Assembly: GCA_028277445.1 (NCBI GenBank)
Contig: JANQGG010000048.1
Span: 1-38,690 of the forward strand
Source: Chloroherpetonaceae bacterium
GTDB taxonomy: Bacteria > Bacteroidota > Chlorobiia > Chlorobiales > Chloroherpetonaceae
Direction: 5' to 3'
Length of the DNA: 38,690 nucleotides
The notes below the pieces were generated by a model. That model ran no database searches and was not told the DNA's origin. It saw nothing but the letters and a program-made list of their open reading frames with translations. Numbering within the stretch: the stretch's first letter is position 1; each line of letters opens with the position of its first letter. The translations under genes were made by a program, and so were the position numbers. Below are positions 30,057 to 36,805 of this stretch, one piece after another.

Positions 30057-30178
30057 AGTAATTTAAATTGAACGATTAGCACGTTATGTTATGTTCTATT
30101 TTATTTTCACTAACACCTGATGTATAAAGTAACAATACATGCATTGTCTCTTGCTTTCTGCCTCACAAACTATCCTCT

Positions 30179-30254
30179 CCCTAATAAATCACCCGACGGG
30201 CCGAAAGTCGTTTTTAAGCCGTCGACGCGACTATAATTTTGCCTATGTTTAGGC
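30179..30254 (-). other. attC-like site 1, after the thioesterase gene
   Basis: On the minus strand it starts GCCTAAA, overlapping the thioesterase stop, and ends ATTAGGG. Inner arms CGACGGC (left) and GCCCGTCG (right) pair. Length 76 bases. Confidence 0.55.
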
Positions 30255-30704
30255 AGTTTGCGTGCTCAACGCTACAAACTCACCGCTCAACCTGCCTACA
30301 ACTTGCTCCTTGTGCTCTAAAACTGACTTAACGGTTACTCTACCTTTTCCACGGCGCGCCAACATGCGAGTGAAGGTTGCCCAGCCTTCAATGTGCTCCA
30401 TTGAGGCTTTTGCTGTAAAATCGCCAAATATAGGTTTTTCGTATTCCATAGCGCTTCGCTGAATCACCAAGTGTATGTCGTTGATACCTTCATCGCTCAA
30501 ACGCATTTGCAGAAGAGACCATGCCGCAAGAATGGCGAGCGCTGAAGCGCTGCCTCCAAAAACAGTTTCGCGGTGATTGATATTAGGCGCTAGCGGAGCA
30601 CGCAAGACAACGGCGTCTGTACTTACTGAAACAACTGAGACTTCCATCGCCTTAGATAGAGGAATATTGTCGTGAAGGTATTTCTCAAATTCAGCTTGTG
30701 ACAT
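30249..30704 (-). CDS. YiiD C-terminal type thioesterase (hotdog fold)
   Basis: The 151-residue protein matches the thioesterase domain found at the C-terminus of E. coli YiiD/FabY, a hotdog-fold family presumed to hydrolyse acyl-CoA or acyl-ACP. Marks are VVLRAPLAPNINHRETVFGG, where the Asn-His pair and GGS are conserved, followed by SALAILAAWSLL and a C-terminal sheet ending SGEFVAL. It is a complete single-gene cassette: a short 5' end just after attC-like site 2 and site 1 overlapping its stop. A second, truncated copy lies at 31618-31803. Confidence 0.85.
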   Translation of the reverse strand: MSQAEFEKYLHDNIPLSKAMEVSVVSVSTDAVVLRAPLAPNINHRETVFGGSASALAILAAWSLLQMRLSDEGINDIHLVIQRSAMEYEKPIFGDFTAKASMEHIEGWATFTRMLARRGKGRVTVKSVLEHKEQVVGRLSGEFVALSTQTA

Positions 30705-30714
30705 TTTTTCTTCT

Positions 30715-30844
30715 TTTTAACGCAGAGTTCAGCAGCGGCACGCTCGACGGCACAAAACGTCAATAAGCCAATAACTTACAACCCACCACCAAACGAAAAA
30801 ACCAGCTCTGATACCGCACAGTCCGGCGCAGCGCCTTATTAGCC
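30715..30844 (-). other. attC-like site 2, after the PIN partner gene
   Basis: On the minus strand it begins GGCTAAT, overlapping the partner-gene stop, continues AAGGCGCTGCGCCGG, and ends CTGAACTCTGC then GTTAAAA. Both inner words are typical of attC arms. Length 130 bases. Confidence 0.6.
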
Positions 30845-31048
30845 CTCTTTATTAATATTTTCATCATAAGCTTTTGCCGCATAAAAAATTTCATCGACGG
30901 TTTTTTCCATCCAAAGATTCCGTTGCCATTCTGTATAATCAAAATTTTCTCTCAAAATCAGGCTTATAAATTTTTCAGTTTCGACAATATTTAACTTCTC
31001 GCGGAGCGCTTTCATGCCTTCATACATTATTATTGTATCTGTTCTCAT
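30839..31048 (-). CDS. Small partner (probable antitoxin) of a PIN-domain toxin
   Basis: This 69-residue helical protein overlaps the end of the PIN gene by four bases (ATGA), so translation is coupled. It contains KLNIVETEKFISLILRENFDYTEWQ, a pattern I associate with small proteins that accompany PIN-domain genes whose products start with YLDNCC. Toxin-first order is unusual for type II modules but occurs. No DNA-binding motif is evident. Antitoxin function is inferred from pairing. Confidence 0.6.
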   Translation of the reverse strand: MRTDTIIMYEGMKALREKLNIVETEKFISLILRENFDYTEWQRNLWMEKTVDEIFYAAKAYDENINKEG

Positions 31049-31489
31049 TTTTCCTCCAGCAGACTAATGAACTCCAGCGGATTTACCACTTTGATTTCTT
31101 TTAAACACGTTGCTTTTTTCATAAGAATTTTATCCGTTGTAAGAAAATAGTCACTTTTTGCCTCAATTGCGCATACCAAGTGAAGTGAGTCTTTTGGTTG
31201 TAATCTATATAATTTTTGTAACCCATTTGCATTATTTCTTATTGTTTCTGAGGCTTTAATATTTACAGCAGATATTGGCTCCCATTCTTTTATTGATTCT
31301 CTTCTTTGTTTGCTTGTAAGGATTTGCTGAATTTTCAAAATCTAAAATAAAAGACCAAACAAGTTCTATTTCGTTGTTTTTAATACAATTCTGAACAAAT
31401 ATTTTGGCTTCAGTTTCAAGTCTGATTATTTCATAAGTTTGGTTATCATAAGGCCTGTTAAAACAGCAATTATCCAGATATATCCGCAT
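31045..31489 (-). pseudogene. PIN-domain toxin gene with a single-base frameshift
   Basis: Two overlapping frames together make one PIN protein of about 147 residues. The first part (from 31489) has MRIYLDNCCFNRPYDNQTYE with the first catalytic Asp and runs to LDFENSANPYKQT. The rest continues in the next frame as RRESIKEWEPISAV and keeps LQPKDSLHLVCAIEAKSDYFLTTD with the other acidic residues. The switch needs one base skipped in ACAAAGAAGAG near 31300. This is a one-base insertion, a sequencing error, or a frameshift site. The remaining sequence is well preserved, so the loss is recent. PIN toxins are metal-dependent RNases. Confidence 0.75.
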
Positions 31490-31602
31490 TTATTATTTCC
31501 TCAACCCGATTGAAGTCTCCTATTATTTTCTAACCAGAGATTTAATAAAATGTACTCAAAATTCCGAATAGCTATTTTGCTCTGTGCAAGTGTTGTTCAG
31601 AA

Positions 31603-31630
31603 GGCTAACGTAAAGCGTCAGCTGTAAAGT
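31603..31630 (-). other. attC-like site 3, 3' remnant
   Basis: On the minus strand CAGCTGACGCTTTAC runs into GTTAGCC. Only the distal arm of an attC is left, joined directly to the truncated thioesterase frame. Confidence 0.4.
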
Positions 31631-31803
31631 ATTGCCAGCGCTGAAGCGCTACCTCCAAATACGGTTTCGCGGTGATTGATATTAGGCACTAGCGGAGCAC
31701 GCAAGACAACGGCGTCTGTGCTTACTGAAACAACCGAGACTTCCATCGCCTTAGATAAAGGAATATTGTTGTGAAGGTATTTCTCAAGTTCAGCCGGTAA
31801 CAT
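31618..31803 (-). pseudogene. Truncated duplicate of the YiiD-type thioesterase
   Basis: The first 58 codons match the thioesterase at 30249-30704 almost residue for residue (NIPLSKAMEVSVVSVSTDAV, then APLVPNINHRETVFGG, SASALAIL) and then stop after YS. The DNA match covers about 31632-31820 against 30530-30721 with few substitutions, including the noncoding TTTTTTCTTCTTTTTAAC, and ends at the predicted attC recombination point. The missing two thirds include most of the fold, so the product is unlikely to work. The reading end runs into an attC remnant. Confidence 0.85.
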
Positions 31804-31813
31804 TTTTTCTTCT

Positions 31814-31914
31814 TTTTAACGGGCTGCGGATAAGCTGCTTGAACGCGCTCCAAGATTACCCTTTTCCGAAAAACAGTCGCGTGTTCACGCGTCAGTTTAA
31901 TGCGCGTCTTAGAT
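31814..31914 (-). other. attC-like site 4, after hicB
   Basis: On the minus strand ATCTAAG begins 11 bases after the hicB stop; the site continues ACGCGCATTAAACTGACGCG and ends AGCTTATCCGCAGCCC, GTTAAAA. Arms with GTGAACACGC and GCGCGTTCAAG pair in part. Length 101 bases. Confidence 0.6.
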
Positions 31915-31925
31915 AGCCAAACATG

Positions 31926-32246
31926 CTAATTTAATTTTTGCAATGTATCAATAACCCATTTATTAATACTTTTTCCTTCTCGCGCTGCCTTAATGTAAAT
32001 ACGATGATGAAGATCAGGACTCATACGAATGACAAATTTACCTGAAAATGGTTTATCAGGTTTCTCATCTCTTTCTTCACAAAACGCAAGATAGTCATCT
32101 ATTGAATCTCGGAAAGCATTTTCAATTTCATCTACACTCCATCCCTGGAATGTAATCACATCTTTTGTATCCAAAACTTCACCATGAAATAGTTTAGCTT
32201 CATCATCATAAGTTACATACCCTGAGTAGCCTTTATATTTTAGCAT
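31926..32246 (-). CDS. hicB: HicB family antitoxin
   Basis: The 106-residue antitoxin has the partial-RNase H-like HicB domain (YKGYSGYVTYDDEAKLFHGE, DVITFQGWSVDEIENAFRDS) and a C-terminal ribbon-helix-helix DNA-binding part (GKFVIRMSPDLHHRIYIKAA, then GKSINKWVIDTL). It neutralises HicA and should repress the operon through the palindrome at 32507-32525. Its start overlaps the hicA stop by one base (TGATG). Confidence 0.93.
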   Translation of the reverse strand: MLKYKGYSGYVTYDDEAKLFHGEVLDTKDVITFQGWSVDEIENAFRDSIDDYLAFCEERDEKPDKPFSGKFVIRMSPDLHHRIYIKAAREGKSINKWVIDTLQKLN

Positions 32247-32503
32247 CAGTTTACTCCTGCTTCGTTTAAAAATCTTCTCATTGATCTAAGAGCGCCTTTA
32301 TCTGTTTCTTTCCTACGATGAGGCCTATGAAAGACCGCTCTCACTCCATTTAAATAAATGCGTACTCTAGATCCTTTCCCTTCAGATAACTCAGCCCCTA
32401 AGGCAATAAGTAAATTTTCTATATCACTCCATTTTACACCGGAACGGGTTGGTTCATGGAAAATATCATCTAGAATCTTTTTGTGTTTCTTGCTTAGGTT
32501 CAT
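32246..32503 (-). CDS. hicA: HicA family mRNA interferase toxin
   Basis: The 85-residue toxin is a double-stranded-RNA-binding-like HicA protein. It has SDIENLLIALGAELSEGKGS followed by RVRIYLNGVRAVFHRPH and the C-terminal KGALRSMRRFLNEAGV. This is the longer HicA subgroup in which GSRVR replaces GSHxx and the catalytic His is presumably in FHRPH. The ATG at 32503 is preferred; an in-frame ATG eight codons upstream (32527) would lie inside the promoter and operator palindrome. Order hicA-hicB is the usual one. Cassette bounded by attC-like sites 5 and 4. Confidence 0.9.
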   Translation of the reverse strand: MNLSKKHKKILDDIFHEPTRSGVKWSDIENLLIALGAELSEGKGSRVRIYLNGVRAVFHRPHRRKETDKGALRSMRRFLNEAGVN

Positions 32504-32506
32504 AAC

Positions 32507-32541
32507 GATACTAATATATAGTATCACATCATTGAAGGCAA
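32507..32541 (-). promoter_or_regulatory. hicA promoter with operator palindrome
   Basis: On the minus strand TTGCCT (32541-32536), 17 bases, TATATT (32518-32513), then only 9 bases to the ATG. GATACTA (32507-32513) and TAGTATC (32519-32525) form a perfect inverted repeat over the -10 box, a likely HicB operator. Confidence 0.6.
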
Positions 32542-32556
32542 ATTATTATAGAGGCT

Positions 32557-32662
32557 TTCTAACAAGTACATCACCCACGCGGAACTCGTCGATGGTTTGA
32601 CTTTGCGAGAGACTGGCTCTAAAAAGACGCCGATTCCGCGTCGTGCACATGTTTTGTTAGGA
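32557..32662 (-). other. attC-like site 5, after the DUF4062-GalT gene
   Basis: The clearest of the sites. On the minus strand TCCTAAC begins 16 bases after the gene's stop and GTTAGAA ends the site. The arms CACGACGCGGAA (left) and TTCCGCGTGGGTG (right) pair with small bulges, as in attC L boxes. Length 106 bases. Confidence 0.7.
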
Positions 32663-32678: not shown

Positions 32679-34574
32679 CTAAAGTAAAAAGTTATTTACA
32701 ATTGTATTTGATTCTAGAGAGAGTTCTTGTTTCACAATAGGCAGTTTTTCCATTATAGTCTCAAAAGTATCCTCTGGAAATTTGTCAACAACATAGAGCA
32801 AATTTAATTCAGATACTGCAAAATCGACCTCTCGAGTAATGAATGAGAATATTGATCGAAAACCATTTGACTGCATATTAAATGGCTCAGCGATCATAAC
32901 TTCATTGAAGCTATGTATTCCAATTTTCTTATATATTTTCGTAACCAAATATTCACATTGAGATAGTGATTCAATTTCCTTCACATTGAGTGACAAGAAA
33001 TTGTTGGAATTCCTCCTTTTGACAATTACTTGTAATTCATGAATAGCAATTTGACCAAAAGGAATATAGAGCATAACATTGGAATCTTCCCAAATAACAT
33101 AATGGCGTGATCGCAGAGCCTCCATATAATCTTCCAAGTAATCTATACCGCTTTTATCGTATGAAGCACATATTTCTGAAAGGTGATCACCGATATTAAA
33201 TGCGCCCTTTGCAAATCCCCAAATTTGCTTATGGACATGCTCAATACTTGCGCCTGCTGATGTTCTTGTTTTTTTGCCAAGAACAAGATGTTTAATTGAT
33301 GAATTAAAACCAAAAAGTATTCCCGCTGAGCCATTTAGTTGATTATTGTCATATTCACTTTTTAAGTGTTTAAATATTTGTAAATTCATTTTTAATAAAT
33401 GTTCTTCTTGAACATCCTCCCAAGAATGTACTGGATCATTAGGGAATGTTAAATAGTGAAAAAATGCACCATAAGGAAAATCATTGGCCATAACAGTTGT
33501 ATCGTTCGTAGTTGCAGAATGGATTTTACGATAATATTTAAAATTGGGATTACAGAATTTGCAGTTTTTCTGTTTTAGTTGTTCTGAGGCCGATGGATTT
33601 TTAGCAGCTATTTTCTTTACGAGATCGCTGGGATCATTAGCATGGATATGGTCCACAACAGCAGGTTCGGTTACGAGTTCTGCTAATACCATGCGAATCC
33701 ATTCATCTTCTTGTTCCAAAATGAATGGGTACATTTTCTTAATTTTTTCTAAATTTATTGATTTTAGATGATCTATTGCTTCAGGCTCTCCCTCTGTTCT
33801 CAGATTTCTAGTTAATCCTACTTGTATTTCAAAGGGTCGGACAGGATCCCTTGTTATAAATACTTTATTTTCTAAGGGATTATTTTGAGAATCACGCCCT
33901 GGTGTGGTACCTATTACTAATCGATAAAAGTGAGGTGCGTTTGAGGGGTGAAATGATGAATATTTATTTGTGTTTGGGACATTTAGTTGATCAACATCAT
34001 TAAATTCTAATTCTGCAATTTCTGTTCTTTGGGAGGGTGCAATGGGTGGTAGGGATTCATTGAGTTCGTCTATTGATATAGCAAGATGTTGGCCTACTAA
34101 ATCTGAGAATTCTTCAAGTTCGCTAAAAGTAGCAATTACACCTGCACCTTCTAATTCTTTTTTAAAAGTCAATACTTTATTCATCTGCTCTATTTCCTCA
34201 AACTTTTGAGGCATAAATGGCCTTTGACAGAAATAAAAAAGAATTTTTTTATTGGCTTTATCAGCTTTCCATTCAGAAAAGGCATTCCTAAATTCTTCTT
34301 CAGTACCAGAATCAGCGATGCCTGTTGGTTTGCCGAACCATTTCCACATTATACCAATGAATATATCGAATTGACCAATTTGTTGATTAATCACTTCTTG
34401 GGGCCGGCCCATTCCAGGTACGAATATCTCCCAACCCTTAAATTCAATATAAATATTTCTTCCGCTGTAAACAGAATTCAAATTATCAATTATTTTTTTA
34501 ACTCTCTCTCGCTCCATATCGACGTCATGTGGCGATGCTACGAATATTCTAATTTTTCTCGTATTATTTTCCAT
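32679..34574 (-). CDS. DUF4062-GalT/HIT-like fusion, candidate defence protein
   Basis: The 631-residue protein joins two modules. Residues 1-175 are DUF4062 (IRIFVASPHDVDMERERVKK, WEIFVPGMGRPQEVINQQI, DIFIGIMWKWFGKPTG, GTEEEFRNAF), a TIR/Rossmann-like domain usually attached to STAND NTPases. Residues about 205-610 resemble galactose-1-phosphate uridylyltransferase: CKFC (338-341) like its zinc site, HYLTFPND (373 on), and the active-site motif GASIEHVHKQIW (441-452), matching GCSxPHxHGQ of GalT with His446 and His448. A second HIT-like lobe follows (VMLYIPFGQIAIHELQVIVKR). A strong GGGAGGTG Shine-Dalgarno (34582-34589), seven bases from the ATG, is unlike most genes in the window. It forms a one-gene cassette. 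Nucleotide transfer or hydrolysis is inferred; a defence role is speculation from the DUF4062 and island context. Confidence 0.8.
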   Translation of the reverse strand: MENNTRKIRIFVASPHDVDMERERVKKIIDNLNSVYSGRNIYIEFKGWEIFVPGMGRPQEVINQQIGQFDIFIGIMWKWFGKPTGIADSGTEEEFRNAFSEWKADKANKKILFYFCQRPFMPQKFEEIEQMNKVLTFKKELEGAGVIATFSELEEFSDLVGQHLAISIDELNESLPPIAPSQRTEIAELEFNDVDQLNVPNTNKYSSFHPSNAPHFYRLVIGTTPGRDSQNNPLENKVFITRDPVRPFEIQVGLTRNLRTEGEPEAIDHLKSINLEKIKKMYPFILEQEDEWIRMVLAELVTEPAVVDHIHANDPSDLVKKIAAKNPSASEQLKQKNCKFCNPNFKYYRKIHSATTNDTTVMANDFPYGAFFHYLTFPNDPVHSWEDVQEEHLLKMNLQIFKHLKSEYDNNQLNGSAGILFGFNSSIKHLVLGKKTRTSAGASIEHVHKQIWGFAKGAFNIGDHLSEICASYDKSGIDYLEDYMEALRSRHYVIWEDSNVMLYIPFGQIAIHELQVIVKRRNSNNFLSLNVKEIESLSQCEYLVTKIYKKIGIHSFNEVMIAEPFNMQSNGFRSIFSFITREVDFAVSELNLLYVVDKFPEDTFETIMEKLPIVKQELSLESNTIVNNFLL

Positions 34575-34625: not shown

Positions 34626-34672
34626 TCTTAACGCCGCAAATCAGCGGCGCCGCTGTATTTGCCTTGTTGTGC
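34626..34672 (-). other. attC-like site 6, after the methyltransferase gene
   Basis: On the minus strand GCACAAC AAGGCAAATA leads into the perfect palindrome CAGCGGCGCCGCTG, then ATTTGCGGC and GTTAAGA. It begins four bases after the stop. At 47 bases it is short for an attC, but arm sequence and symmetry are typical. Confidence 0.6.
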
Positions 34673-34675
34673 GTT

Positions 34676-35380
34676 TTACAAAATTGGATTTAATCTTGCT
34701 AAAAATCCGCCCTCTTCAGTATTAATGAGTTTCTCTACAGACCAACCACATTCCAAAACATGGGGAGCCAATGTATCAAAGTCTACGTGCAGCCAATGCA
34801 TCCAGGGACCGACGTTTCCTTCAAATGATAAACGGAACTCCTGTTCCCCTGGATATCCTTTGCGGTCTGGGAAAATGGCTGATTCAGGCTCTTTGACAGA
34901 ACTGGGTAGCAACTGGCCGTCTGAACGCAGAAGCCTTTCGCATTTACGGAGTAAGCCCTTTATTCCCTTTAGGGTTTCGCAAATACCAATGTTATGCCCC
35001 AGCATAAAAACTGTATCAAATCGTTCGCCTTCAAAATGTAAAAAATTCTGCTGTCTGGCATCCTTGATTCCGCGTTCTTTCATGATATGTAACGCTTGAG
35101 GACAAATGTCGATGGCTGTAACTTCATAGCCTCGCTTTTCAGGTTCAAGGGCATGAACCCCCAGTTCCTGCCCCAAAAACCAAAATTTGACCCCGGCAAT
35201 TATCAAAAGCATTGTCAGTCTGTAAAAATTCTCCATGAGAGCGGAAAAATACGGAAACCGGCAACGATTTTTTTTGCCGGTCTTGAACTCATGTATAAGC
35301 ACAGCAGATTCATTGCCTCGCCAGTAAGAAAGTAACGCCTGTCCAAAGGGTTCAAGAGGTAACTTGTAAGATTCTCTCAT
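34676..35380 (-). CDS. Class I SAM-dependent methyltransferase with two compensating frameshifts
   Basis: The open frame resembles small-molecule SAM methyltransferases of the type beginning FGQALLSYWRGN and continuing RGYEVTAIDICPQALHIMKERG. In the open frame the SAM-binding motif reads FWFLGQELGVHA, which is wrong. In the neighbouring frame, bases of about 35268 down to 35160 encode SLPVSVFFRSHGEFLQTDN and ILVFGAGTG, exactly the missing family segment. Adding one A in the 8-base run at 35268-35275 and removing one G in the 5-base run at 35158-35162 restores a normal protein with GAGTGVHA. So it is a damaged gene or two homopolymer sequencing errors. An in-frame ATG at 35473 would add 31 residues unlike the family. 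Confidence 0.7.
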   Translation of the reverse strand: MRESYKLPLEPFGQALLSYWRGNESAVLIHEFKTGKKNRCRFPYFSALMENFYRLTMLLIIAGVKFWFLGQELGVHALEPEKRGYEVTAIDICPQALHIMKERGIKDARQQNFLHFEGERFDTVFMLGHNIGICETLKGIKGLLRKCERLLRSDGQLLPSSVKEPESAIFPDRKGYPGEQEFRLSFEGNVGPWMHWLHVDFDTLAPHVLECGWSVEKLINTEEGGFLARLNPIL

Positions 35381-35638
35381 GTCTTGTATTCGCACAACAT
35401 TGATTATATGGTTTCCGCATAAGACGCCTGCGGGTATTCTTTCAAAATTATATAACGTCAATTTTTTCAACATCTTACCCCCAACTTAACCCTTTATGCA
35501 GGCATCTTATACGCATTAGTATAAGACATCTGATCACAGAGCATCTTCAGGGTAATGTAGGCTTAAAAGCTCTAGATTTTAAAATGGATATAGAGGACTT
35601 TCATGCTTTGTTGAGTTCGGGTTTTAACTCTTAAAAAA
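35381..35638. other. Short gene-free stretch before the methyltransferase
   Basis: The only frame here is the 5' extension of the methyltransferase. GCATCTTATACG (35502 on) and CGCATTAGTATAAGACATC (35511 on) contain a partly inverted TCTTATAC/GTATAAGA pair that could be regulatory or a cassette-start remnant. Otherwise nothing is recognised. Confidence 0.3.
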
Positions 35639-35735
35639 ACCTAACGCCTTATTTTAACGAAACTAATCAAAAAAAATAAAATCGGTTTACCCAGAGACTG
35701 CCTAGCTAAAGACATAGCTGTGAGTGGTTCTCACG
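35616..35735. repeat. Direct repeat, copy A
   Basis: About 120 bases repeated with roughly nine tenths identity at 36687-36805, in the same orientation. Shared words include CCTAACGCCTTATTTTAACG and AACTAATCAAAAAAA, TAAAATCGGTTT and GCTAAAGACA. The pair flanks the yefM-yoeB unit and the antitoxin remnant. Confidence 0.85.
35639..35691 (-). other. attC-like site A within direct repeat A
   Basis: On the minus strand GGTAAAC starts and GTTAGGT ends a 53-base segment. GTTAGGT fits the consensus end fully; arm symmetry (CCGATTTTA against TAAAATAAGG) is modest. Confidence 0.4.
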
Positions 35736-36686: not shown

Positions 36687-36805
36687 TTCGGGTTTTAACT
36701 TCTAAAAAACCTAACGCCTTATTTTAACGAAACTAATCAAAAAAATAAAATCGGTTTGCCCAGAAACCGCCTTGCTAAAGACAGCACTGTGACTGGTTCT
36801 TATGC
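36687..36805. repeat. Direct repeat, copy B
   Basis: Second copy of the 120-base repeat at 35616-35735, same orientation, about 1.07 kb away. Confidence 0.85.
36709..36760 (-). other. attC-like site B within direct repeat B
   Basis: On the minus strand GGCAAAC starts and GTTAGGT ends a 52-base segment upstream of yefM. It would mark the right-hand limit of the recognisable cassette array. Confidence 0.4.

Follow-up and report, generated by a model that had tools for sequence, protein, structure and literature searches.

Full-length and truncated copies of a thioesterase unit in a probable integron cassette array remnant of a Chloroherpetonaceae bacterium

The window analysed here, 38,690 nucleotides long, is the entire contig C29 of a 3.42-Mb assembly (99% complete) of a Chloroherpetonaceae bacterium. 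From 36.6 to 30.2 kb every gene is on the minus strand, in an array that runs, in order, through YefM/YoeB, a methyltransferase, a DUF4062 protein, HicA/HicB, a short thioesterase, a PIN-like protein with a small partner, and a full thioesterase. Its features, given in that direction, are these:

34676..35473, minus strand: methyltransferase cassette gene (PF08241)
34626-34672, minus strand: intact attC site after the methyltransferase gene (R'' GCACAAC, R' GTTAAGA), top score in the window
32679..34574, minus strand: cassette gene with a DUF4062 N-terminus, candidate defence family PDC-S60
32557-32662, minus strand: intact attC site after the DUF4062 gene (R'' TCCTAAC, R' GTTAGAA), second score in the window
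31926..32527, minus strand: hicA/hicB toxin-antitoxin cassette (PF07927, PF05534)
31822..31921, minus strand: site B, presumed to be a degenerate attC, separating hicAB from the truncated unit
31814..31820, minus strand: GTTAAAA box at the start of the truncated unit, R'-like, matching GTTRRRY at 6/7 positions
31618..31821, minus strand: thioesterase unit, truncated, homologous over 31627-31821, with an ORF that stops at 31618 after 61 aa
31603..31627, minus strand: stub ending GTTAGCC, directly past the truncation point, possibly a 3' attC remnant
30839..31489, minus strand: frame-broken PIN-like gene (31256-31489, 31045-31338) plus small ORF 30839-31048
30723..30846, minus strand: site A, presumed to be a degenerate attC, separating the PIN-like gene pair from the full unit
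30715..30721, minus strand: GTTAAAA box at the start of the full unit, R'-like, matching GTTRRRY at 6/7 positions
30249..30722, minus strand: full thioesterase (YiiD_C) unit, ORF 30249-30704 plus an 18-nt leader to the G^TTAAAA box

Of the array genes, 5/7 have a GTTRRR motif in the 40 nt upstream, against 1/26 of the other genes in the window (Fisher p=0.0005; p=0.002 with the two homologous copies counted once). The PDC-S60 match of the DUF4062 protein is confined to its first 180 residues, and the PIN match reaches just 17.2 bits, below the cut-off; the PIN-like gene (31045-31489) is split over two frames, apparently a second broken gene in the array. A 116-nt repeat, ~90% identical between 35616-35731 and 36687-36800, flanks the YefM/YoeB toxin-antitoxin genes and has partial copies at C52:75511 and C16:73615. 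A plasmid DNA match of the array, found next to a Tn3 transposase in Legionella antarctica, proved to be hicAB coding sequence only and was rejected as a cassette.

The two thioesterase units form one of only two repeats in the window at the self-BLAST search threshold. Self-BLAST and local alignment pair 30528-30722 with 31627-31821 over 195 nt (92.3% identity, 15 mismatches, 0 gaps, E=3e-75), which bears out the match of about 190 bases, ending at GTTAAAA, described in the initial annotation; a third copy is absent from the genome. That annotation had started the truncated copy at 31618, a position that holds as the end of the stop codon of the short ORF, the homology itself beginning at 31627. 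At the high-coordinate end, which is the 5' end of the cassette given its minus-strand orientation, the leader is fully identical in both copies, and identity ends past CGTTAAAA at 30722/31821. Read on the minus strand, both copies start ...CGTTAAAAAGAAGAAAAAATG, and the bases preceding this shared start are different and unrelated (GCTGAACTCTG in one copy, TTATCCGCAGCC in the other); the 150 nt beyond the breakpoint hold no related alignment, the best being a 13-nt AT-rich match. Integrase cleavage of attC falls between the G and the TT, so that an inserted cassette starts TTRRRY and the preceding base comes from the recipient. As the G is common to all sites, homology at a G^TT crossover is expected to begin at TT; here it starts with CGTTAAAA in both copies, within 1 nt of the expected crossover, the shared C being a 1-nt overrun. 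The 5' boundary of both copies thus coincides with the G^TT crossover point of an R'-type GTTRRRY box, with the final pyrimidine missing from GTTAAAA. A GTTRRR start lies no further than 1 nt from about 0.9% of minus-strand positions, an endpoint statistic that is post hoc. The other end of the homology lies inside the ORF, where after ...GCNATNCTT the short copy continues into TACAGCTGACGCTTTACGTTAGCC, with ~3 nt (CTT) common near the join.

The full copy encodes 151 aa and matches PF09500 (1.3e-41, 142 bits) and TIGR02447 (1.4e-39, 135 bits), both above cut-off. The short copy encodes the first ~58 residues of the thioesterase and then reaches a stop (61 aa in all); its PF09500 match, limited to profile positions 2-57, passes the Pfam cut-off at 63 bits, and it falls below the TIGR02447 cut-off (56 of 97). 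Over the 58 shared codons dS is 0.28 and dN 0.04, so most of the divergence accrued while both lines were functional genes. The copies are not the product of a recent double insertion; they resemble either two alleles or a duplicate of old date. The earlier proposal that the cassette was inserted twice and one copy cut down can stand only for alleles already diverged or an old duplication. Residue 39 is V in the short copy and A in 88/88 homologous sequences, a change that would be expected after function was lost; residue 6 is F in the full copy and L in nearly all homologs. Taken with the silent divergence, this departure in the full copy argues that the short copy is not simply its cut-down descendant.

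The nearest homologs found are proteobacterial, at no more than 65% identity (Pandoraea), and YiiD_C proteins of same-order relatives are just 31-37% identical; this distribution suggests that the thioesterase gene was acquired laterally, as expected of a cassette gene. In Acidithiobacillus sp. HP-2 a 56%-identical YiiD_C thioesterase lies between attC-like sites, with four more on the contig, and by these sequence signs the family does travel as a cassette elsewhere. That 4.2-kb contig (L054, 1-4241) carries ~six attC-like sites in all and the same transposase-like sequence at both ends. A thioesterase homolog on a Vibrio plasmid had no attC above background, and an independent copy of the exact thioesterase cassette was not found at the DNA level.

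We searched for attC sites with our own, uncalibrated scanner, which looks for R''/R' box pairs and arm complementarity and scored 407 candidates in the window. Its top two, 34626-34672 and 32557-32662, each lie exactly between two genes; by score alone the second (16.2) is barely above the next candidate (15.2). The second site folds with z -3.89 (0/200 shuffles as good) and the first with z -1.44; a covariance model whose training set includes the first site gives it 32.2 bits on the minus strand and 14.6 on the plus. Built from joined attC arms, this model detects short attC sites only (it missed 32557-32662 despite training on it), and its genome-wide result is uninformative on long sites. 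Its second genome match, C58:133579, has the appearance of a plain inverted repeat and was discarded. Rfam returned no match.

Sites A and B were described initially as different attC-like sites that the two copies enter at GTTAAAA, a description that the structural evidence does not sustain: their pairing scores (9.5 and 10.5, against a background median of 10.3) are not above background, and shuffled sequences fold at least as well (z +1.20 and +0.04). Both retain the GTTAAAA box and some arm-like motifs. In site A the 5' arm, GGCTAATAAGGCGCTGCGCC, is attC-like and overlaps the stop codon of the preceding gene, and the 3' arm is of another type and does not pair with it; decay or a chimeric join is likely in site A, of which the genome holds no other copy. 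With the attC expected before each copy unrecognisable by pairing or folding, it was too strong to call the duplicate direct evidence that GTTAAAA marks a cassette boundary, although the position of the breakpoint at the box, the two same-strand attC sites and the GTTRRR enrichment all speak for such a boundary. At its 3' end, where a cassette would carry an attC of its own, the full unit shows none on folding (30160-30250, z +1.04), and the truncated unit has there the stub 31603-31627 only. As their own 3' attC is missing, possibly through decay, we term these units cassette remnants and not cassettes.

The fold of 31603-31687, which takes in the stub, has a hairpin (z -1.28). Neither the stub nor its flank (31481-31627) resembles the 3' part of the full unit, and the genome holds no further copies of the stub region. 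We infer that the truncation was a later deletion, which would have fused codon ~58 to the GTTAGCC-ended stub. It is barely conceivable that the integrase itself made the truncation, by recombining attC with a secondary site in the thioesterase ORF and leaving a gene-less cassette that was kept for a regulatory role, for example as a promoter.

No integron integrase scores above cut-off in the whole 3.42-Mb assembly, which thus lacks the complete intI of a complete integron. What the genome does contain, on contigs other than that of the array, are pieces resembling the IntI C-terminus on C68, C16 and C63, the best (C68:94929) scoring 102.7 bits and ending in HVLNRGHSGVRSPVDGL, an integron-integrase-like tail. 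These pieces (C68:94929, C16:80276, C63:2248) are orphan C-terminal fragments that stand without the rest of the gene, and other genomes of the order carry similar short pieces of the C-terminus. A complete IntI (429 bits) is present in the closest relative, G001, and several further genomes of the order also have complete ones; near the one in G001 no attC scored above 15.

With only pieces of an integrase in the genome, the array is best read as a CALIN, a cluster of attC sites lacking an integron integrase. We consider it probable that the locus is such a remnant cassette array on the minus strand, holding two diverged alleles of one thioesterase cassette, one of them truncated. Each allele would have been joined to the array by integrase at G^TT, and insertion at different places would leave them sharing sequence from TTAAAA onward, with what lies upstream belonging to two different cassettes; the role of the integrase in these joints is read from their position. 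Later, probably after the integrase was lost, the deletion would have joined one copy, at ~codon 58, to a 3' stub left from an attC; several attC sites would also have decayed. Against this reading count sites A and B, which neither fold nor score above background, the missing 3' attC of the full unit, the imperfect GTTAAAA, the post hoc nature of the endpoint statistic, the failure to find an independent DNA-level copy of the exact cassette, and the narrow margin of the second attC site in an uncalibrated scan.

A rather unlikely alternative has the short copy arise by an old duplication of the gene and its leader, without any integron; the GTTAAAA endpoint would then be a coincidence, favoured by a ribosome-binding leader rich in A. 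In its favour, sites A and B cannot be recognised as attC, and with a shared leader of just 18 nt any copy of gene plus leader would end nearby; yet the array has two well-formed attC sites on the same strand, GTTRRR is enriched upstream of its genes, and the endpoint falls within 1 nt of the box. A recent duplication within the array, by excision and reinsertion with one copy then cut down, would suit copies ~1.1 kb apart in a single array, but dS of 0.28 with dN of 0.04 makes it very improbable, and each copy departs from the homologs on its own (F6 in the full copy, V39 in the short); we reject it on divergence.

Under the CALIN reading, a natural pair of diverged cassette alleles fixes the 5' boundary of a cassette to the base, and the locus offers a small example of cassette and attC decay after loss of the integrase. 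Published work already records integrons in Chlorobi (PMC2426708, PMC9024848), a group in which they have received little study and to which the array adds an integron remnant. Pseudogenes are generally considered to be absent from cassettes (PMC11014356), which makes the truncated thioesterase mildly interesting; it is a neat but commonplace relic of an inserted cassette that later underwent deletion, and the general picture of integrons is unchanged.

CALINs have been proposed to be degraded integrons (PMC9024848). Like those defined with IntegronFinder (PMC9024848), the array combines at least two attC sites close together, small accessory genes on the same strand and no integrase nearby; it differs in having only two clearly intact sites and several decayed ones, called here with our own scanner. 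In the integron remnant of Treponema phagedenis, attC sites and cassettes were kept after intI was lost, and the same paper expects some attC sites to have degenerated beyond their typical structure (PMC3607928); the present array belongs to a different phylum and holds one cassette as both a full and a truncated allele. Among the degenerate gene cassettes of Vibrio superintegrons, some gene-less cassettes hold truncated genes that are intact elsewhere (PMC11014356), the clearest case there having lost its gene by premature stops, whereas here the loss came by deletion. Both integrase-less cassette remnants and degenerate gene cassettes have been described before, and the present case adds one more.
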